From positions 1 to 33,577 of IMG/VR virus record IMGVR_UViG_3300010885_021350: a stretch of DNA of 33,577 bases; one strand, written 5' to 3'. Numbering within the stretch: position 1 is the stretch's first letter; every line of letters starts with the position of its first letter. A program made the translations under genes and the position numbers. Origin of the DNA: a virus. This document shows, in pieces, positions 5,510-24,507 of the stretch. Below the pieces are notes generated by a model that made no database searches, was not told the DNA's origin, and saw only the letters and a program-made list of their open reading frames with translations.

Positions 5510-6036
5510 AGTATCCATACAAACCGCTTGTAGTTCCTGCCGCTTTGAAAAACATTCCTAATGGAAAGTTGCCTGATTCATTATTGAAGAAGGTTGATTG
5601 CAACGGGAAAATGTATGCGCCGGTTGCTGACAAGTTCAATCAAATGTTTGCGGCCGCTAAAGCGGATGGAATCAAACTTGTGAACATTGGTGATTACCGG
5701 CCGCTTGAAGCGCAACTTGGATTATTCAAAGAACGTTACCGCCCTGCTGAAGATCGTGATTATGCCGACAAGAAAAAAGGTATTCTTGTAGATACCAAAC
5801 GTGTGAAGCGTGAATACGAAGGTAAAACGTGGTTATTGCGTAACGGGTTTGCACCGTGTTCAACTCCGGGGAAATCTAATCACGGTTTAGGGCTTGCGAT
5901 TGACATTAGTGTTACCGATCCAAAAGTTGCTGAATGGTTATGCGCTCACGCGCCGGACTTCGGTTTCTTTTTACAAAGCGATGATCCGACTTCACGCGAG
6001 TTTGAATTGTGGCATTGGCAAGCAGTAGCCGCATGA
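5506..6036 (+). CDS. Endolysin, M15-family D-Ala-D-Ala carboxypeptidase-like peptidase
   Basis: This 176-residue protein has the zinc peptidase signature of family M15 (VanY-like). The motif SNHGLGLAID supplies the ligands His126 and Asp133, and ELWHWQ near the C-terminus supplies Glu167 as the probable catalytic base and His170 as the third ligand. GDYRPLEAQ upstream fits the conserved substrate-side region. It would cleave stem-peptide bonds in the peptidoglycan. No signal peptide and no wall-binding domain is seen, so release would depend on the holin. It is coupled to the holin upstream and to a tiny membrane peptide downstream, both by ATGA overlaps. Confidence 0.85.
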   Translation: MKYPYKPLVVPAALKNIPNGKLPDSLLKKVDCNGKMYAPVADKFNQMFAAAKADGIKLVNIGDYRPLEAQLGLFKERYRPAEDRDYADKKKGILVDTKRVKREYEGKTWLLRNGFAPCSTPGKSNHGLGLAIDISVTDPKVAEWLCAHAPDFGFFLQSDDPTSREFELWHWQAVAA

Positions 6037-6107
6037 TCTTTCTAACGTTCATTGTTTTTTGTGCTGGTTGTTGTTGGGTTCTTGGAAAGTTGTTTCAAGA
6101 ACAGTAA
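6033..6107 (+). CDS. 24-residue hydrophobic membrane peptide in the lysis cassette
   Basis: This microprotein of 24 residues starts with the ATGA overlap of the endolysin stop and ends with the TAATG overlap of the PA14 gene start. It begins MIFLTFIVFCAGCCWVLGKL and ends FQEQ: a single membrane segment with three Cys and a short polar tail. The double coupling argues that it is translated. It may help lysis or the export of the next product, or act only to couple ribosomes to the next start. Function is unknown. Confidence 0.5.
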   Translation: MIFLTFIVFCAGCCWVLGKLFQEQ

Positions 6108-7381
6108 TGCGGCGTTTGCTGGCACTTGTTCTGCTGGCTTTTAGTTTGATGACGGGGTCGGCTAACGCCAAGCCTTCCTATACGCAGGGTTTATCCGTTG
6201 TCGGTTATACGGTTGATGATATTCCGCCTTTGCGTTCTGATGACGCGTATCCCGTTTGTGGTGAAGGTGTGTATGAGCAAATAAATTACACATGGGATTA
6301 TCCACAAAACTTGTTCGGTGATTGTGGGTGGGATCAGTTCATGTTGCATTACAGAGGTTTCATCACGTTACCTGCCGGTGTTCAATCGGTGCGGTTTGGT
6401 ATTGCGGCTGATGATGGTTCTGATGTGACTATTGGTGGCGCGAACTTTGGCGGATGGTATGACAAGGGTTGCTCAGTTGATTATTCGGATCGCGTTGAGT
6501 TGCCTGCCGGTGAGCCGTTGAAACTGGATGCGTGGTTCTATGAGAACGGCGGTGGTACGTGCTTCATGTTGTTTTGGCAGTTCGGTTCAGATAACGCGGA
6601 TTGGGAAATTGTGCCTGCTTCGGCGTTTACTCAATCCGATGCTGTCGCGATAACTGTTCCCACTTTGACGCTTCCCGAGACAACCATCCCCATAGAAGAA
6701 TCAACAACAACATCGCAGATAGTGACGACAACTGTTTCGCCTTCTTCAACTTTTTCTCCTGCATCTACTAGCGAGATTCCTTCTGTGGTTACGACTACTG
6801 TTTTGGAGTTGCCGTCGCCTAGTGAAACAACTTTCATTTCTACTTCCACTTCTTTAGTCGTGCCAAATGTTACGACGACGGAAGCGGTGACGACAACATC
6901 TTTGGCTAAACCGGTGCCGAAACCCTCAACTACAACTACGGCTTATACAACAACGACAATTCCGGATATAACGACGACCCTCACCGCGTTATTGCCCCCT
7001 ACGACAGCCGTAGAGGTGACTAAAGAACCGGCCGCCCCTATTACTCCCGAAACTCGTTTTGACTCGCCAGAAGCCATTCTAGAGGCCGTTTCTAATCCGG
7101 TAGCCCTAGAAAATGCGACACCTGCCGAAGTCGCGGCAATTTTCACCGCGATAGATGAGGCGGCCATAAGCGACGCTCAGGGGGCGGCCATTGTGAAAGC
7201 AATTCAACACGCTTCCAAAAAAGTTCGCGCGTCATTTGAAAAAAATGTAAACGTCTTTGCAGGCCACACGGACACATACGTTCCACTAGGTTCTTCCGTC
7301 CCTGTACGCTCGCGACGCATTATCATCGTGTCATCAGTTCTTATAGCAGTTCCACCACCATCAAAGGCAAAACGAAAATGA
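6107..7381 (+). CDS. Secreted PA14-domain surface protein with Thr-rich stalk
   Basis: The start at 6107 gives 424 residues and a classical signal peptide (MRRLLALVLLAFSLMTGSAN, cleavage after ANA at 21). Residues 45-178 form a PA14/GLEYA-type beta domain with several Cys (FMLHYRGFITLPAGVQSVRF, AADDGSDVTIGG, CFMLFWQFG). Such domains bind glycans. Residues 180-330 are a Thr/Ser/Pro-rich stalk, and the end has a helical region, RSRR, a short hydrophobic stretch and the basic tail KAKRK. An upstream ATG at 6059 would lack a clean signal peptide and would overlap the 24-residue peptide. It looks like a bacterial surface adhesin carried by the phage. Its role in lysis, adhesion or exclusion is unknown. 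Confidence 0.65.
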   Translation: MRRLLALVLLAFSLMTGSANAKPSYTQGLSVVGYTVDDIPPLRSDDAYPVCGEGVYEQINYTWDYPQNLFGDCGWDQFMLHYRGFITLPAGVQSVRFGIAADDGSDVTIGGANFGGWYDKGCSVDYSDRVELPAGEPLKLDAWFYENGGGTCFMLFWQFGSDNADWEIVPASAFTQSDAVAITVPTLTLPETTIPIEESTTTSQIVTTTVSPSSTFSPASTSEIPSVVTTTVLELPSPSETTFISTSTSLVVPNVTTTEAVTTTSLAKPVPKPSTTTTAYTTTTIPDITTTLTALLPPTTAVEVTKEPAAPITPETRFDSPEAILEAVSNPVALENATPAEVAAIFTAIDEAAISDAQGAAIVKAIQHASKKVRASFEKNVNVFAGHTDTYVPLGSSVPVRSRRIIIVSSVLIAVPPPSKAKRK

Positions 7382-9070: not shown

Positions 9071-9294
9071 ATCCCGACCTTGAATTTGATTTTAATGAAA
9101 CGCCGTTAGTTCATTTCAATGCGTGGTGTATTCAAGATGTTATTTCGTTTAACGAAGATGGTGTTGATACGTCGCTTGTTTTATATTTGGGTAGCGACGA
9201 ACACGATAAGAAAATTGGGGTTCTGCTTGACGTTTACGCGGCCGCGTATATTGCGCGTGATTTATTGTCAGGAAGTTTAGATGTCGGGTTATGA
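9064..9294 (+). CDS. Hypothetical acidic protein
   Basis: This 76-residue acidic protein starts within the end of the phosphoesterase gene (7-nt overlap). It reads as a small mixed alpha/beta protein: a strand-rich middle (SLVLYLGSDEHDKKIGVLLD) and a C-terminal helix (VYAAAYIARDLLSG). I do not recognise a family. Its end overlaps the next gene by 14 nt, so it belongs to the same transcript. Confidence 0.55.
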   Translation: MVDPDLEFDFNETPLVHFNAWCIQDVISFNEDGVDTSLVLYLGSDEHDKKIGVLLDVYAAAYIARDLLSGSLDVGL

Positions 9295-9553
9295 ACCAAT
9301 AGTCATTCTTTGGGCTGATGCTCACGCAGGGGATGGTCATTGGGCAACTCTTGACGAAGATGATACGGGTGAACATATTGTTACGACGGCCGGATTCATT
9401 ATTCACGACGACGACGGCGGCAAGGAAAATCATTTCACTATCGCGCAATCTGTTTCTCCTGATGGTTTCGTGGATCATGTGATTCATATACCGAAGGCGA
9501 TGATGCGTGAAATGTTTGGGTTAGTTAAGCAGGAATCACCGAAGGCAAACTAG
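9281..9553 (+). CDS. Hypothetical phage protein
   Basis: This 90-residue acidic protein is rich in Asp, Glu and His (HDDDGGKENH). It has WADAHAGDGHWATLDEDDTG near the N-terminus and DHVIHIPKAMMREM near the C-terminus. The make-up of alternating strands with a final helix is seen in small early proteins of actinophages. I recognise no catalytic motif. It overlaps the preceding gene by 14 nt. Confidence 0.55.
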   Translation: MSGYEPIVILWADAHAGDGHWATLDEDDTGEHIVTTAGFIIHDDDGGKENHFTIAQSVSPDGFVDHVIHIPKAMMREMFGLVKQESPKAN

Positions 9554-9605
9554 TCAACTTTAAGAATGGTCGTGATAGACAAGTGACCTTTCAAGGAGAT
9601 GGATA

Positions 9606-9743
9606 ATGAACGCGAATGACGTTGCAATGATGGTGGAGTTCTTGATGCGAGTAGTTCCGCGCGGCCAGCAAGAGGAAGAACAGTTGGTGCGTATTGTGCG
9701 AACGCTTCAGAAGTCTTTGCAAAGGCAAGTCACCGCCGCTTAA
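9606..9743 (+). CDS. 45-residue helical protein
   Basis: An SD (AAGGAG, then ATGGATA before ATG) supports translation. The product begins MNANDVAMMVEFLMRVVP and is an amphipathic helical peptide with the charged run GQQEEEQL and a C-terminus of KSLQRQVTAA. Its stop codon overlaps the stop of the leftward gene at 9740. It may be a small regulatory or partner-binding protein, but nothing specific is seen. Confidence 0.5.
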   Translation: MNANDVAMMVEFLMRVVPRGQQEEEQLVRIVRTLQKSLQRQVTAA

Positions 9744-9940
9744 CGCGCGAACGGGTTAGCAAAGAATCGTTCTGCGGCTTCGTATTTGTCTATCCATTGT
9801 TTGGCTTCCGCGATAGTTGAAAGGCCTTCTATCTCCGGTTGTAGCGTGAAGTCTTTCGCGCCGTTTGGCGCATAGTGAATATCGTATGCACCGTCAAACT
9901 TCCAAATAACCCAATCTGTTTTGTATCTTGTTTGATTCAT
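9740..9940 (-). CDS. Hypothetical protein, leftward operon
   Basis: This is one of only two leftward genes. It encodes 66 residues with a Trp-rich strand region (TDWVIWKFDGAYDIHY) and a C-terminal helix (AEAKQWIDKYEAAERFF), a style seen in small phage proteins of unknown function. It is the second gene of the minus-strand pair, 12 nt after the stop of the upstream gene. The upstream bases AAGAATTAACACA give only a weak SD. It converges tail to tail with the 45-residue protein gene, their stop codons overlapping. Confidence 0.55.
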   Translation of the reverse strand: MNQTRYKTDWVIWKFDGAYDIHYAPNGAKDFTLQPEIEGLSTIAEAKQWIDKYEAAERFFANPFAR

Positions 9941-9952
9941 TGTGTTAATTCT

Positions 9953-10309
9953 TTATGACCTTGGCAACCGGCAATTACGTTTCGTGCGGTCGCTGAACTC
10001 GTGACCTTGTGCAATCATCTGTTCGTAAACCGTTTTCTTTGTTGCCTTAGCGGACATACCGAGGCCGAAAAAATCACTATCCATATAAACCCATTCGGTT
10101 GAGTAGTAGTCAGCGTCGCTGAGTAGTTCTTCCGCGTCTGCTGTGCTGAGTTGAACAATGAAACGTTTCTTTGTTTCTTTGATGATGTATGTTTCGCGTT
10201 CGCCGGATTCGTTTACGAGGTCACGTGCTTCGTGATCTTCAAAGAAGCGTTTCGGAATGTTGAGGGTGAATGTTTCTATCATTGGTTTCTCCTTGTTGTT
10301 TGTTTCCAT
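9953..10309 (-). CDS. Leftward leader gene, small actinophage protein; paralogue of the divergent gene
   Basis: The first gene of the leftward pair. Two in-frame starts are possible: the leaderless-type ATGGAAAC at 10309 (118 residues) and an ATG at 10282 with a strong SD (AAGGAG, then AAACCA). Residues after the second start read MIETFTLNIPKRFF. The region KKRFIVQLSTADAEELLSDA matches, by eye, KKRTLIRATMAQLDGLVYDA of the divergent gene at 10454, so the two look like diverged paralogues. Its promoter (10316-10344) is nearly identical to those of 10454 and 15684. Opposite polarity suggests a separate expression time, possibly regulatory. Confidence 0.6.
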   Translation of the reverse strand: METNNKEKPMIETFTLNIPKRFFEDHEARDLVNESGERETYIIKETKKRFIVQLSTADAEELLSDADYYSTEWVYMDSDFFGLGMSAKATKKTVYEQMIAQGHEFSDRTKRNCRLPRS

Positions 10310-10315
10310 AGGTAC

Positions 10316-10344
10316 ATCATATCGGGTTTTACCCCAAAAGTAAA
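10316..10344 (-). promoter_or_regulatory. Leaderless-type promoter for the leftward genes
   Basis: On the minus strand: -35 TTTACT (10344-10339), 17-nt spacer, -10 TATGAT (10321-10316), then 6 nt to ATG at 10309. The predicted transcription start is at the A of the ATG, so the mRNA would have no leader. AAGT-N3-ACTT overlaps the -35 (10343-10353). Two other promoters in the window share this layout. Confidence 0.65.
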
Positions 10345-10378
10345 GTCTTACTTATATAACCGAAAGTTATCCCTAAAA

Positions 10379-10395
10379 CACTTATAACATAAGTG
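10379..10395. promoter_or_regulatory. 17-bp palindromic operator, copy 1
   Basis: CACTTAT-AAC-ATAAGTG is a perfect inverted repeat with 7-bp arms in the region between the divergent promoters. Its centre lies about 67 nt upstream of the predicted start at 10454. The identical arms recur at 18552-18568. The XRE protein at 17812 is one candidate binder. The region 10310-10453 otherwise holds only promoter elements. Confidence 0.6.
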
Positions 10396-10418
10396 AAATA
10401 AAAAACCCTAAGTATAAC

Positions 10419-10447
10419 TTTACTTTTCTGTAATTAACGGTTATGAT
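10419..10447 (+). promoter_or_regulatory. Leaderless-type promoter for the rightward early genes
   Basis: -35 TTTACT (10419-10424), 17-nt spacer, -10 TATGAT (10442-10447), then 6 nt to the ATG at 10454. AAGT-ATA-ACTT (10410-10420) overlaps the -35. The layout is the same as in the promoters for 15684 and for the leftward genes, so the transcript is predicted to start at the ATG. Confidence 0.7.
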
Positions 10448-10453
10448 TGAGTC

Positions 10454-10804
10454 ATGGAAACGAACACAACACCAGAAATCAAATACGAAGTATGGGTAGG
10501 CGGAAACCTTTTTGAAGATTGGGATACTCGCGGAATACTCTTAGCGATGGAAAGCGACAACGACGCTTTAGAAATCGTTTCACAGAATAAAAAGCGCACA
10601 CTAATTCGTGCAACGATGGCTCAACTAGACGGCCTTGTATATGACGCAGAATTACAAATCCAAGATTGCCACGAACCGGCTCCAAGTTGGAAACGCACCG
10701 TTAATAGGTTCATCGCGCGAGTCAATGCAGTAAAGATAAAAAGCGAATTCAACTTAGACAAATACATCAACGGGATTCTTAACAACCAAAAGGAAACAAA
10801 ATGA
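10454..10804 (+). CDS. First gene of rightward early operon, leaderless; hypothetical
   Basis: This 116-residue protein begins METNTTPEIKYEVWVGG, directly at the predicted transcription start, and has no SD. The KKRTLIRATMAQLDGLVYDA region matches the leftward gene at 9953-10309, suggesting an ancient duplication around a shared control region. The C-terminal half is basic (WKRTVNRFIARVNAVKIK). It overlaps the next gene by ATGA. Function is unknown; being the first gene after the early promoter suggests an early host-directed role. Confidence 0.6.
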   Translation: METNTTPEIKYEVWVGGNLFEDWDTRGILLAMESDNDALEIVSQNKKRTLIRATMAQLDGLVYDAELQIQDCHEPAPSWKRTVNRFIARVNAVKIKSEFNLDKYINGILNNQKETK

Positions 10805-14091: not shown

Positions 14092-14322
14092 ATGGAGTGG
14101 CGAGAAAAGGCCGAATGTCGCGGTATGGGTTGGGAAATCTTCTTTCCACCTTTTGCGGATTATCGTCAAGCGCGTGAGATATGCGCGAAGTGCGAAGTGC
14201 GTGTTCCGTGTCTTGAATCTACTTTGCTTATTGAAATAGATCGTGACGGTATGTTTGGTGGCTATACGCCCAATGAACGTGCGTTGCTTAGGGAAAAGAG
14301 AAACAAGTGGAAACCTATTTGA
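14092..14322 (+). CDS. whiB: WhiB-family iron-sulfur transcription regulator
   Basis: This 76-residue protein has the four WhiB cysteines: Cys9, then the CxxC...C set Cys31, Cys34, Cys40, which bind a [4Fe-4S] cluster. The G-rich turn GMFGGYTPNER stands in place of G[VI]WGG and is followed by a basic tail (REKRNKW). WhiB proteins bind sigma region 4 in Actinobacteria; phage copies often alter host or late transcription and help exclude superinfection. This family is the best evidence that the host is an actinobacterium. SD GGAAGG lies upstream; the end overlaps the next gene by 16 nt. Confidence 0.9.
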   Translation: MEWREKAECRGMGWEIFFPPFADYRQAREICAKCEVRVPCLESTLLIEIDRDGMFGGYTPNERALLREKRNKWKPI

Positions 14323-19879: not shown

Positions 19880-20383
19880 ATGATCATGATGGGAACAGAA
19901 ACAATCAACCTAACCAAAATCAAGCCGCACCCCAAGAACGTTCGCCAAGGCGACATAGGGGCAATAAGCGAATCGCTAGAACGTCACGGCCAATACCGGC
20001 CAATCGTCGCACAAAAATCCTCAGGGCATATACTCGCCGGAAACCACACTTATAAAGCCGCGAAACTACTTGGATGGAAACAAATAGAAGTCACGTGGGT
20101 TGACGTAAACGATGACGAAGCATTACGAATCCTGCTAGTAGATAACCGCGCAAACGATCTAGCAAACTATAACGATCACGCTCTAAACGAAATACTTGTT
20201 GGCCTCATGCAAACAGAACAACAACTTGCAGGTACAGGCTTTGACGCAGATGACCTTGACCTACTCATCAAAGATTTAGATAACGCAACGGAATCTCCAA
20301 CAGAGTTTCCGTCATACGACGAAACAACCCCTACAGAACATGAATGCCCTAAATGCAACTATAGGTGGTCAGGCAAGTCGTGA
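19880..20383 (+). CDS. ParB/Srx-fold domain protein with C-terminal zinc ribbon
   Basis: This 167-residue protein has a ParB N-terminal-domain core: IKPHPKNVRQGDIGAISESL, ILAGNHTYKAAKLLGWKQIE (the GNHR-like box is GNHT) and LVDNRANDLANYND. This variant, with GTGFDADDLDLLI downstream, is typical of ParB-like proteins beside or fused to phage DNA methyltransferases. The end HECPKCNYRW looks like half a zinc ribbon. ParB/Srx folds bind nucleotides (CTP in ParB) or DNA. It overlaps the methyltransferase by GTGA, so both belong to a modification operon. Three ATG codons lie at its start; 19880 is chosen. Confidence 0.75.
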   Translation: MIMMGTETINLTKIKPHPKNVRQGDIGAISESLERHGQYRPIVAQKSSGHILAGNHTYKAAKLLGWKQIEVTWVDVNDDEALRILLVDNRANDLANYNDHALNEILVGLMQTEQQLAGTGFDADDLDLLIKDLDNATESPTEFPSYDETTPTEHECPKCNYRWSGKS

Positions 20384-21438
20384 AACCAAAATACAAAGTT
20401 CCTGCGTTAGCGGAGATAGCCAAACTCAAAGGCACTAACGGTTATACGCTTGTATCTACATTCTCAGGATGCGGCGGTTCATGCTTAGGTTTTGAAATAG
20501 CAGGGTTTAACCCTTTACGCGCACATGAGTTCATTCCATCCGCCGTAGATACCTATAAAGCGAACCACCCAGATACGCCGGTAGATACTCGCGACATACG
20601 CGAAGTCACCACAGAAGAAATCTTAGAAACCCTAAACATGAAAAAAGGTGACCTAGATGTACTAGAAGGATCACCGCCGTGCGCCTCATTCTCAACAGCC
20701 GGTAAAAGAGAACGCGATTGGGGAAAAGTAAAAACGTATAGCGACGGCGCACAAAGATCAGATGACCTCTTTTTTGAATTTGCGCGACTTGTAGAAGGCC
20801 TACAACCAAAAGTATTCGTAGCAGAAAACGTCTCCGGCCTCGTCAAAGGAACCGCAAAAGGATATTTCTTTGAAATACTCGCCGCATTAAAAAAATGTGG
20901 CTACAAAGTAGAAGCACGACTACTAGACGCTCAATGGTTAGGAGTCCCCCAATCGCGCCAAAGAGTGATATTCGTTGGAGTTAGAAACGATCTAGAACTT
21001 GACCCCGTATTCCCTAGCCCAAACAATTACCGGTACTCAATCTTTGAAGCATTAGAAAACGTTCCTGAACCAACCGAAGAACAAGAAACAGGTTTAATAC
21101 TTACAAAAGCGGTTTACAACCAATGGATGAAAACCGAAATAGGTAAATCAAACAAAAAGTATTTTCAACTAGTACGAACAAACCCAAACAAACCCTGCCC
21201 AACAATAACCGCACACGCCGGAGAAGGCTGCGCGTCAGTCTGTCATTTCAATGAGCCACGAAAGTTTTCAATCCCAGAAATGCGTCGCCTCTGCTCATTC
21301 CCCGACGACTTCAAACTATTAGGCAAAAGAAATCAGAGAGCAGAAAGACTAGGCCGTTCAGTACCACCACTAATGATGGCCGCAATAGCAAAAACCATAC
21401 AAACAGAAATATTGGATCGTCATGCAAATCCCGACTGA
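20380..21438 (+). CDS. C5-cytosine DNA methyltransferase with altered cofactor-pocket residues
   Basis: The GTG at 20380 overlaps the ParB-like stop and gives 352 residues. The motifs are complete: TFSGCGGSCLGF (motif I), SPPCASFS with catalytic Cys101 (IV), AENV (VI), QSRQRVIFVG (VIII), KPCPTITAH (IX) and GRSVPP (X). In canonical enzymes motif X is GN(S/A)VPP; here the Asn is Arg326. The residue after the catalytic Cys, often Gln, is Ala102. The enzyme would modify cytosine C5 in DNA; the target sequence is unknown. The altered residues and the overlapping CmoA-like gene suggest the donor may be carboxy-SAM instead of SAM. Plain methylation remains the default alternative. Confidence 0.9.
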   Translation: MKPKYKVPALAEIAKLKGTNGYTLVSTFSGCGGSCLGFEIAGFNPLRAHEFIPSAVDTYKANHPDTPVDTRDIREVTTEEILETLNMKKGDLDVLEGSPPCASFSTAGKRERDWGKVKTYSDGAQRSDDLFFEFARLVEGLQPKVFVAENVSGLVKGTAKGYFFEILAALKKCGYKVEARLLDAQWLGVPQSRQRVIFVGVRNDLELDPVFPSPNNYRYSIFEALENVPEPTEEQETGLILTKAVYNQWMKTEIGKSNKKYFQLVRTNPNKPCPTITAHAGEGCASVCHFNEPRKFSIPEMRRLCSFPDDFKLLGKRNQRAERLGRSVPPLMMAAIAKTIQTEILDRHANPD

Positions 21439-22078
21439 CTGGACATTTAAACAAACCGGAATCGCCGCAGAGTTTGACCGACACGTACGCGAACAACTCC
21501 CTTGGTACGACCTAGTAACCGGCGCAGTAGCACACATCGCGAGACACTACATACCCGAACACGGCCGCGTTTACGACATAGGATGCAGTACAGGGAATAT
21601 CTCAAAACTATTAACCGAAACACTCGCAACTAGAAACGCCACTTGTATCGGAATAGACAACAGCGAACAAATGCTACAAATCTGGAACGGTTACGGAAAA
21701 ACCGAACTAGCAGACGCAACAACATACGACTACCAGCCACACGACCTCACCGTAATGTTCCTAGTCTTAATGTTCACCCCAATAACCGAACGAACAAAAC
21801 TAATAAACAAACTCATAGAAACATCACGCGCAGGCGGCGCAATTATCATAGTTGACAAACTAGAAGCCCCCAACGGTTACTTAGGAACAATCCTGCACCG
21901 CTTAACTATCGCCGGTAAAGTCGCCACAGGAACAACCGCAGAAAACATAATCAACAAAGAACTATCATTATCAGGCATACAACGACCACTAAAAGAAACA
22001 ACACTTCCAGACTCATTCAAACCGTTCTTCCGGTTCGGAGAGTTCGCAGGGTGGATACACGAAACCCCGTCTAACTAG
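21422..22078 (+). CDS. CmoA-like SAM-dependent enzyme (carboxy-SAM synthase-like)
   Basis: This 218-residue class I SAM-binding protein starts inside the methyltransferase gene (17-nt overlap). It resembles E. coli CmoA: DWTF near the N-terminus, VYDIGCSTGN (residues 50-59; CmoA VYDLGCSLGA), IGIDNSEQM (76-84; CmoA IAIDNSPAM), LMFTPITERTKLINKLIE and AGGAIIIVDK, and the end FFRFGEFAGW (CmoA WFQCFNFGSL). CmoA uses SAM and prephenate to make carboxy-SAM. I could not place the equivalent of CmoA Arg199 (carboxylate contact) with confidence; by eye it may be Glu180. It could instead be an ordinary methyltransferase. No CmoB tRNA enzyme is present in the window. Confidence 0.7.
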   Translation: MQIPTDWTFKQTGIAAEFDRHVREQLPWYDLVTGAVAHIARHYIPEHGRVYDIGCSTGNISKLLTETLATRNATCIGIDNSEQMLQIWNGYGKTELADATTYDYQPHDLTVMFLVLMFTPITERTKLINKLIETSRAGGAIIIVDKLEAPNGYLGTILHRLTIAGKVATGTTAENIINKELSLSGIQRPLKETTLPDSFKPFFRFGEFAGWIHETPSN

Positions 22079-22096
22079 CAATATTGGAATCCACAC

Positions 22097-22528
22097 ATGA
22101 CAAGTCCAAAAGCACCTAAACCAGATCAGATAGATAAAGAACGTCGGGTAATAGAACTACGACGCGCCGGTGCAACATACGACGATATAGCCCAAGCGGT
22201 CGGGTACGCCGATGCCTCAGGCGCAAGGAACGCTTATATCCGTGCGATGAAAAGAACTCTTGTAGAAGCCGGTACGGAAGAAATACGCGAACTTGAACTT
22301 GATCGCCTTGACCGTATGCAACGCGCTATATGGGCTAAAGCGATGAAAGGTGACGTTCAAGCGATTCATACGGCGTTAAAGATTCTTGACCGTCGCGCTA
22401 GGTATCTTGGCCTTGACGCGCCGATGAAGCAGGAAATTACTATTGAGAACGCTGACGGTGCAATGATTGACCGCGAAGTAGCACGGCTCGTAGAAATGTT
22501 AGAAAAAACAAATGGCACTACTTCGTAA
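22097..22528 (+). CDS. terS: Terminase small subunit-like HTH protein
   Basis: This 143-residue protein has an N-terminal HTH (VIELRRAGATYDDIAQAVGY, then SGARNAYIRAMKR) and a helical, DNA-contact-like region (ELELDRLDRMQRAIWAKAMK, then IHTALKILDRRARYLGLDAP) that is characteristic of actinophage small terminases. The small terminase recognises phage DNA for packaging. It precedes Gp88-like and large terminase genes, overlapping Gp88 by 17 nt. A short gap without a strong promoter separates it from the CmoA-like gene. Confidence 0.75.
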   Translation: MTSPKAPKPDQIDKERRVIELRRAGATYDDIAQAVGYADASGARNAYIRAMKRTLVEAGTEEIRELELDRLDRMQRAIWAKAMKGDVQAIHTALKILDRRARYLGLDAPMKQEITIENADGAMIDREVARLVEMLEKTNGTTS

Positions 22529-23147
22529 AGGGAACAGCGACCTCAAACGTGACAACATCTACGTATGGTCACTTCCTGCATGGATAGTCACCCTACCGAC
22601 CGGCAAACGCTTAAACACCTGCCCGTCTGCCGGAGTGTGCACAAAACATTGCTACGCGCTTAAAGGCACATTCAAGTTCAGGAACGTTCGTGAAGCACAC
22701 ATGAGAAACCTGATGATGATTGTTGATGACCTAAACGGTTGGATACAAGTCATGTCTTTAGAAATCGGGCATCCCAAGTTTCGTGGCGCATACGTCAGGA
22801 TACATGACGGCGGTGACTTCTTTTCCGAGGCGTATCTACAAGCGTGGCTACTCATAGCACGTGAACATCCTGAAACAACTTTTTACGCCTACACCAAAGA
22901 GGTAGAAATGTTTAGACGAATAGTTGAACCGGATTGCCCTGCAAACTTCAAATACGTTTTCTCATACGGCGGCAAACACGATCATTTGATAACTGAGGCG
23001 GATAGGCGTTGCGACGTGTTTCCTAATCACGAGTCATTGGTTGAAGCGAACTTTCATGATCAAGCAGAAAGCGACCTGCTCGCTATCACGGGGAACCACG
23101 CCGTAGGCATCGTCGTAAACAACCACGCAGGCGCAGTAAAAAAATGA
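22512..23147 (+). CDS. Gp88-family protein between terminase genes
   Basis: This 211-residue protein has the pattern of the phage gene product 88 family: CPSAGVCTKHCYALKGTF (Cys37, Cys43, Cys47), YVRIHDGGDFFSEAYLQAWL, then HPETTFYAYTKEVEMF. Family function is unknown. The Cys cluster could bind a metal or Fe-S cluster; the C-x5-C-x3-C spacing differs from radical-SAM C-x3-C-x2-C. It lies between terS and terL, with an ATGA overlap at its end. Confidence 0.7.
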   Translation: MALLRKGNSDLKRDNIYVWSLPAWIVTLPTGKRLNTCPSAGVCTKHCYALKGTFKFRNVREAHMRNLMMIVDDLNGWIQVMSLEIGHPKFRGAYVRIHDGGDFFSEAYLQAWLLIAREHPETTFYAYTKEVEMFRRIVEPDCPANFKYVFSYGGKHDHLITEADRRCDVFPNHESLVEANFHDQAESDLLAITGNHAVGIVVNNHAGAVKK

Positions 23148-23191: not shown

Positions 23192-24507
23192 GCGAAATGG
23201 CCGCACGAATAGCGGCGGCACAAGTTAGATGGGAACACCAGTTAGCGCGACCCAACCAGTTACCGCCCGATGGTGATTGGGTGATATGGATGATCCGTGC
23301 AGGTCGCGGCTTTGGTAAGACTCGTATCGGTGCTGAAACCCTCGCTAAATGGGCTATAAGGAACCCAAACACCCGTTGGGCGGTAATAGCCCCAACTTTC
23401 GGTGACGCTCGCGATACCTGCGTAGAGGGTGAATCCGGCCTGCTTAACATTGTTCACCGATACGGGATGCTGAAACCCCGAAACGGGTGGAACCGGTCAA
23501 CCGGAGAAATGCGGCTTATTAACGGCTCGCGTATCAAATGTTTCTCCGGCGATGAACCCGACCGGCTACGCGGCCCACAGCATCACGGCGCATGGGTAGA
23601 TGAGTTAGCGGCGTTCAAATACCCCGACGCTTTTGACCAACTTCAATTCGGTTTACGGCTAGGTGAACACCCTCGCACTATCATTACGACAACGCCGCGC
23701 CCCAAACCTTTCATTCGTGCTTTACTAAACCGACGTGACGGTTCCCTCGTAGTCACTAACGGATCAACGTTTGATAACGCCGACAACCTCGCACCATCGG
23801 CATTAGCAGAACTTATGGCGCGTTATGACGGAACACGCTTAGGTCGTCAAGAACTTTACGGTGAACTATTAGAAGATGTTGAAGGCGCACTATGGACACT
23901 TCAACTTATAGAACAAAACCGCCTACCGGAAGTACCACAACTTGTTCGCACCGTCGTCGCGGTTGACCCTTCAGTAACCGATACGGGAGACGAAACCGGC
24001 ATCATTGTCGCAGGCCGCGACAGCAAACAACACGGCTACGTTATCGCTGACTACAGCGTACGCGGCACACCTGACCGTTGGGCGCGTCGCGTAATAGATG
24101 CCTACGACGAACACCAAGCAGACTCCATCGTTGTAGAAGTCAATCAAGGTGGCCAAATGATTAGTCAAGTATTACGTACGATCCGGCCAAACTTACCGAT
24201 ACGCGAAGTACGCGCCACGAAAGGCAAACAAGTACGCGCCGAACCTATATCAGCGTTATACGAGCAAGGACGCATACACCACATCGGCGTATTTGAAGAA
24301 CTAGAAGAACAACTAACAACGTGGACACCCGATGCACCAAAGTCTCCCGACCGTTTAGATGCGCTCGTGTGGGCGTTTACGGAACTGATTCAACATTCCG
24401 GCGCGTTGTCTTATCTGCAAGCAATAGCAAAAATTTGTTCATGTGGATACCCGAACAAACAAACCAATACAGTATGTGAGTCCTGTCGCTTACCACTCGC
24501 GGCGTGA
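23188..24507 (+). CDS. terL: Terminase large subunit
   Basis: This 439-residue packaging ATPase-nuclease shows Walker A AGRGFGKTR (residues 38-46), Walker B AWVDE (135-139, Asp138/Glu139), TTTPRP as motif III, and a RNase H-like nuclease with VDPS (Asp260), VVEVNQGG (a Glu) and DRLDALVWA (a Asp). It translocates DNA into the prohead and cuts the genome. The C-terminus adds ICSCGYPNKQ ... CESC, a Cys pair set that looks like a small zinc ribbon; this is not a usual end for TerL. The start ATG overlaps the minicistron. Confidence 0.9.
   Translation: MSEMAARIAAAQVRWEHQLARPNQLPPDGDWVIWMIRAGRGFGKTRIGAETLAKWAIRNPNTRWAVIAPTFGDARDTCVEGESGLLNIVHRYGMLKPRNGWNRSTGEMRLINGSRIKCFSGDEPDRLRGPQHHGAWVDELAAFKYPDAFDQLQFGLRLGEHPRTIITTTPRPKPFIRALLNRRDGSLVVTNGSTFDNADNLAPSALAELMARYDGTRLGRQELYGELLEDVEGALWTLQLIEQNRLPEVPQLVRTVVAVDPSVTDTGDETGIIVAGRDSKQHGYVIADYSVRGTPDRWARRVIDAYDEHQADSIVVEVNQGGQMISQVLRTIRPNLPIREVRATKGKQVRAEPISALYEQGRIHHIGVFEELEEQLTTWTPDAPKSPDRLDALVWAFTELIQHSGALSYLQAIAKICSCGYPNKQTNTVCESCRLPLAA

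Follow-up and report, generated by a model that had tools for sequence, protein, structure and literature searches.

Does a phage that encodes a C5-cytosine methyltransferase and, overlapping it, a protein resembling the carboxy-SAM synthase CmoA use the two together to carboxymethylate its own DNA? The question is raised by a linear virus record of 33,577 bases from IMG/VR, analysed here over its whole length and called the window. A sequence-only reading had placed the gene pair at 20380-22078 with an overlap of 17 nt between the two ORFs, both of which are correct, and had proposed that carboxy-SAM made by the second protein would allow the first to write 5-carboxymethylcytosine (5cxmC). 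This chemistry appears well founded, as judged from the homology of the pair to a published system and from the co-occurrence of CmoA with a particular arginine of the methyltransferase. The novelty that the proposal implied did not hold, because the CmoA-CmoX system was already in print: for the Synechococcus phage S-B43 it was described in December 2025 that CmoA makes carboxy-SAM, that CmoX uses it to produce 5cxmC and that the ligase CmoY adds glycine (PMC12783734). Carboxy-SAM-dependent DNA modification is thus already known, and the window is a further instance and not the first. As the authors of that study searched IMG/VR with SpCmoX (PMC12783734), the window contig may itself be among the 5,615 CmoX sequences that they count.

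Layout of the locus and the methyltransferase

The genes lie on the plus strand in the order parB-cmoX-cmoA and form one operon. A ParB-like N-terminal-domain protein of 167 aa is encoded at 19880..20383 (PF02195, E 7e-8), a predicted DNA cytosine C5-carboxymethyltransferase (CmoX) of 352 aa at 20380..21438 (PF00145, E 1.9e-60), and a predicted CmoA-like carboxy-SAM synthase of 218 aa at 21422..22078. The GTG start codon of cmoX at 20380 overlaps the TGA of the ParB-like gene, the overlap of these two genes being 4 nt, and a second in-frame GTG for cmoX is found at 20365. On the 3' side of the CmoA-like gene follow, in this order, a probable small terminase, called from its position (22097-22528), a GP88-family gene (22512-23147; PF17338, E 6e-52), the large terminase and the portal gene. 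The probable small terminase matches phrog_645, a family with the misleading label RNase E. The C-terminal tail of the large terminase (24400-24507) is rich in cysteine and contains two CxC/CxxC pairs, as it does in several relatives.

Phages with a related large terminase carry differing DNA-modification cassettes in the slot between the ParB-like gene and the terminase genes. The slot, which in the window (19880-22078) contains CmoX-CmoA, holds elsewhere TET/JBP oxygenase genes together with other enzymes (L201:3212-5488, L214:1322-5036 and L218:3035-5547), Mom (L228:2904-4291 and L258:753-2178), a fusion of ParB with an N6/N4 methyltransferase (L252:4352-5542), or an unidentified gene accompanied by an FkbM-type methyltransferase (L206:3430-5596). 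DNA modifications seem to be exchanged at this site.

The WhiB gene from which the sequence-only reading had derived an actinobacterial host is present at 14092-14322 (PF02467, E 1.9e-15) and suggests, as a sequence marker, the same host range to us; searches with the terminase and a capsid-region protein returned no close isolate. With this, carboxy-SAM DNA modification would extend to a phage whose host is probably an actinobacterium.

The solved structure closest in sequence to the window methyltransferase is PDB 8yf3 (E 3.8e-68; next entry E 2.8e-23), that is SpCmoX, the DNA cytosine C5-carboxymethyltransferase of S-B43, crystallised with carboxy-SAM (PMC12783734), to which it is 39% identical. 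When modelled with AlphaFold (mean pLDDT 88.8), the window protein superimposed on 8yf3 with Z 41.0 (rmsd 2.1, 315 aligned residues), as compared to 32.7 and below for ordinary C5-methyltransferases. Both by sequence and by modelled fold, the protein is hence nearer to CmoX than to ordinary C5-methyltransferases. In the alignment, every cofactor-binding and catalytic residue of SpCmoX that we checked has its counterpart in the window: the carboxy-SAM contacts F25, E47, F48 and D69 correspond to F28, E50, F51 and D72, and the SPPC motif is kept as S98-P99-P100-C101, with the nucleophile Cys101 corresponding to SpCmoX Cys98. The most telling feature of the protein, which had escaped the sequence-only reading, is its motif X. 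It reads GRSVPP, with Arg326 (codon 21355..21357, plus strand) in the place where Asn is usual, and Arg326 aligns with Arg350 of SpCmoX and with Asn304 of M.HhaI. Arg350 touches the carboxyl group of carboxy-SAM, the sole cofactor accepted by wild-type SpCmoX (PMC12783734). By homology of sequence and model, the window methyltransferase is predicted to be a CmoX, a class whose defining traits include carboxymethyl transfer to cytosine and a GC target. Neither GC nor CG dinucleotides are depleted in the window, from which nothing firm on the target follows.

The CmoA-like protein and its arginine

The resemblance of the second gene product to CmoA was confirmed, at scores below the NCBIfam cut-offs. 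CmoA (TIGR00740) was its best NCBIfam match (E 1.5e-15; 57.5 bits for a cut-off of 193.3), the score for NF011995 was 43.4 for a cut-off of 285 bits, and the best PDB sequence matches were the CmoA proteins of E. coli and H. influenzae. The full-length profile phrog_4752, whose label "tRNA methyltransferase" is misleading for phage CmoA, matched the window protein with E 2.5e-51, SpCmoA with E 7.4e-71 and E. coli CmoA with E 1.4e-101. Identity to E. coli CmoA and SpCmoA is 24-26% (26% to SpCmoA), and most SAM-binding residues of E. coli CmoA are kept. An AF2 model (pLDDT 92.7) has the CmoA fold, the nearest PDB chains being the CmoA structures 4gek, 1im8 and 4iwn with Z 25-26 (for 4gek: Z 25.8, 213 aligned, rmsd 2.3). 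As other SAM methyltransferases reach Z 23.5, the fold alone is no proof of CmoA function. Consistent with the sequence-only reading, which had found no tRNA carboxymethyltransferase encoded here, a tblastn search of the window with E. coli CmoB gave no meaningful match (best E 1.1).

In E. coli CmoA, the carboxylate is held by a salt bridge with Arg199 (PMC3663124). The corresponding column contains Glu180 in the window protein and Glu188 in SpCmoA. The divergence of the window CmoA, its NCBIfam miss and the absence of Arg199 all speak against DNA carboxymethylation by the pair. The low score and the lack of Arg199 weigh less, however, because both are shared by SpCmoA, which is active in carboxy-SAM synthesis as measured (PMC12783734) and also remains under both NCBIfam cut-offs (115.6 of 193.3 bits for TIGR00740, and 102 bits for NF011995). 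Among 71 distinct homologues we distinguished three nearly exclusive classes by the position of an arginine in E. coli numbering, namely Arg199 (n = 12), Arg203 (n = 12, including SpCmoA, and with one sequence that bears Arg at 207 as well) and Arg207 (n = 47). The window CmoA belongs to the Arg207 class: its Arg188 is located eight positions past the Arg199 column, in a motif KELSLxGxQRP that is kept across dozens of divergent CmoA relatives, which implies selection. From this sequence pattern we infer that the Arg207-class arginine, Arg188 in the window, may take over the carboxylate contact. To our knowledge, no member of this third class has been assayed.

Motif X arginine and CmoA among relatives

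We collected relatives of the window methyltransferase from two sources, viral contigs and the genome contigs of bacteria and archaea, read their motif X residue off alignments and searched the retrieved flanks for CmoA by profile. In the second source, CmoA was encoded nearby for 25/30 genes of the Arg type, but for 0/43 of the Asn type and 0/4 of the Met type. With all sets combined and contig-end cases excluded, 95 of 100 Arg-type genes had CmoA nearby versus none of the 48 genes of the Asn, Met and Cys types (Fisher p 1.3e-33, relatedness ignored). On a tree built with the motif X residue masked, the Arg state changes three times, and essentially every one of these changes is matched by a like change of CmoA; three independent switches are too few for the tree-corrected sign test to become significant (p 0.25). 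We did not find this contrast of Arg with Asn, Met and Cys within one methyltransferase family, which serves as a control, in the main text of PMC12783734.

A ParB-like gene, on the other hand, does not mark carboxymethylation. We rejected it as a marker since in bacterial genome contigs it was equally common beside both types (25/30 Arg-type and 43/47 Asn/Met-type genes). It is therefore a general partner of the methyltransferase family, and its product is probably a DNA-binding accessory.

A search for other phages with the same gene pair, which the sequence-only reading had suggested, was successful. Isolated phages with both the motif X Arg and CmoA are S-B43, S-CRM01, TurkishDelight, Mcat8, PaBG (in which CmoA is annotated beside cmoX) and Erwinia SNUABM_1. 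In a sample of six distant relatives, motif X contains Met or Asn (Cellulophaga phi18:3, Flavobacterium FPSV-S2, Rhodobacteraceae LS06, LoVEphage, Pseudomonas U8 and Aphanizomenon CL131); the genera that they infect were all missing from the CmoA matches listed, in a non-exhaustive search that omitted PaBG. The Moraxella phage Mcat8 (KR093632), with a complete genome of 40.7 kb, resembles the window in its parB-cmoX-cmoA order with overlapping ORFs and in having no ligase match (identity 49% for CmoA and 45% for CmoX). It differs in its Gram-negative host, and its proteins are annotated as hypothetical.

Related combinations were observed in other genomes. Arg-type CmoX with CmoA, in some cases together with a ligase homologue, occurs in bacterial assemblies of Nonomuraea (L122, L125), Streptomyces sp. 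NRRL S-455 (L144), a Hyphomicrobiales MAG (L183) and Bradyrhizobium jicamae (L188), the last two of which have ICRMVPP instead of GRxVPP as motif X. The Alcaligenes phage Afa-NA1 (L115, PV550095.1) has a CmoA homologue at 5953-6705, and no CmoX was recognised within 6 kb of it; 2.5 kb downstream of CmoA lies a gene (9178-10497) that carries the annotation DNA adenine methylase and possibly encodes another carboxy-SAM acceptor. In the Staphylococcus phages SPbeta-like (L112:6690-7688) and vB-SscS-F1 (L114:7497-8504), the latter also with a CmoY homologue, CmoA adjoins or lies near a distant HhaI-like methyltransferase with Gly, not Arg, at the motif X position, which reflects either another mode of carboxylate binding or a limit of the alignment.

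The end product and known carboxy-SAM systems

By analogy with S-B43, we consider it very probable that the two genes constitute a CmoA-CmoX module, predicted to carboxymethylate phage DNA. The CmoA-like protein would convert SAM and prephenate, which we assume to come from the host shikimate pathway, to carboxy-SAM. In CmoX, the target cytosine would be flipped out and attacked at C6 by Cys101, Arg326 would hold the carboxylate of carboxy-SAM, and the carboxymethyl group would be moved to C5 to yield 5cxmC in phage DNA, with probable DNA-binding assistance by the ParB-like protein. Bare 5cxmC would be the likeliest end product of the window module. Its role would most likely be to block host restriction, in analogy to the HhaI resistance that modification by SpCmoX gives in vitro (PMC12783734).

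Searches with five CmoY proteins returned no meaningful match in the window. Two complete phages with CmoX and CmoA, Mcat8 and S-CRM01 (178.6 kb), are likewise without a CmoY match, and as none of the three gave one, the modification may end at bare 5cxmC. Ligase searches of phage collections did not name any Moraxella phage; the cyanophages that they listed were solely S-B43 and two near copies of it, S-B05 and RB11-B. Numerous relatives have no ligase near the module, where absence means none within the fetched flanks and some contigs are partial. With absence defined in this way, the ligase label changes at least 16 times on the CmoX tree, which is near the value for shuffled labels; the ligase is therefore seemingly gained and lost freely. 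The published counts (5,615 CmoX, 4,257 CmoA, 2,251 ligases and 1,660 ParBc; PMC12783734) agree with the existence of many ligase-less modules. A replacement tailoring enzyme common to ligase-less loci was considered and rejected, the kept neighbours being terminase genes and shadow ORFs. We thus regard it as fairly likely that nothing is added later to 5cxmC by the window module. The broader proposal, that the ligase-less branch ends in free, negatively charged 5cxmC by way of a third-class CmoA with a different carboxylate-binding arginine, is more tentative, its chances falling slightly short of even.

A competing explanation, which agrees with the main one up to the last step, is that 5cxmC is an intermediate, capped by a CmoY-type ligase encoded in a missing part of the genome or by an unrecognised or host enzyme. 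In S-B43, the carboxymethyl group provides the attachment point for glycine and is not the final base, and virion DNA contained the glycine amide alone, with no free 5cxmC detected (PMC12783734). Moreover, the closest CmoA among the matches found (73% identical) is encoded by the uncultivated phage contigs L086-L088 from IMG/VR, which share with the window the ParB-like gene and a CmoX of 58% identity but differ from it by a CmoY ligase gene between parB and cmoX; and a ligase may lie outside the window, a linear fragment of 33.6 kb. Against capping stand the missing match to five CmoY proteins, the numerous relatives with no ligase near the module, the ligase searches in Moraxella phages and cyanophages, and the lack of any other enzyme family common to ligase-less loci; furthermore, the missing part would, by gene order, lie inside the tail-gene region between the window ends. 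Capping is thus a possibility to be taken seriously, albeit rather less probable than a module that stops at 5cxmC. That the methyltransferase writes plain 5mC with SAM, next to an unrelated CmoA-like protein serving tRNA modification or SAM-dependent methylation, appears very unlikely. The family is indeed one of C5-methyltransferases, and the window CmoA is divergent, below the NCBIfam cut-off and devoid of Arg199; however, the motif X arginine is shared with SpCmoX, which takes carboxy-SAM only (PMC12783734), CmoA accompanies 95/100 Arg-type genes versus 0/48 other relatives, and no CmoB was found in the window. Least probable of all is an inactive relic, for which the missing Arg199 of CmoA could be cited, as both ORFs are intact, all checked active-site residues of CmoX are kept, and KELSLxGxQRP has been conserved in divergent relatives.

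Carboxymethylation by the CmoA-CmoX module raises a testable question, namely whether ending at bare 5cxmC is common among phages, which the isolates Mcat8, S-CRM01, PaBG and TurkishDelight are able to answer directly.

Three known systems can be compared with the window. S-B43 shares a CmoX with the motif X Arg, a CmoA-like gene in the operon and no CmoB found; its gene order is cmoA-cmoY-cmoX, whereas the window has parB-cmoX-cmoA with the ParB-like gene in front, no CmoY found, and a CmoA of another arginine class. The engineered M.MpeI N374K represents the same kind of swap, since exchange of its motif X Asn for a basic residue likewise leads to use of carboxy-SAM (PMC12783734); unlike the window protein, this enzyme is engineered, carries Lys instead of Arg, targets CG and has no dedicated synthase. 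The CmoA/CmoB tRNA wobble pathway of E. coli has the CmoA fold in common with the window, but its acceptor is tRNA, via CmoB, while in the window no CmoB was found and CmoA is missing Arg199. To the published system the present analysis adds the comparison of Arg with Asn and Met types, the division of CmoA into three arginine classes, complete phages with the module and no ligase match, and the non-specificity of the ParB-like gene.
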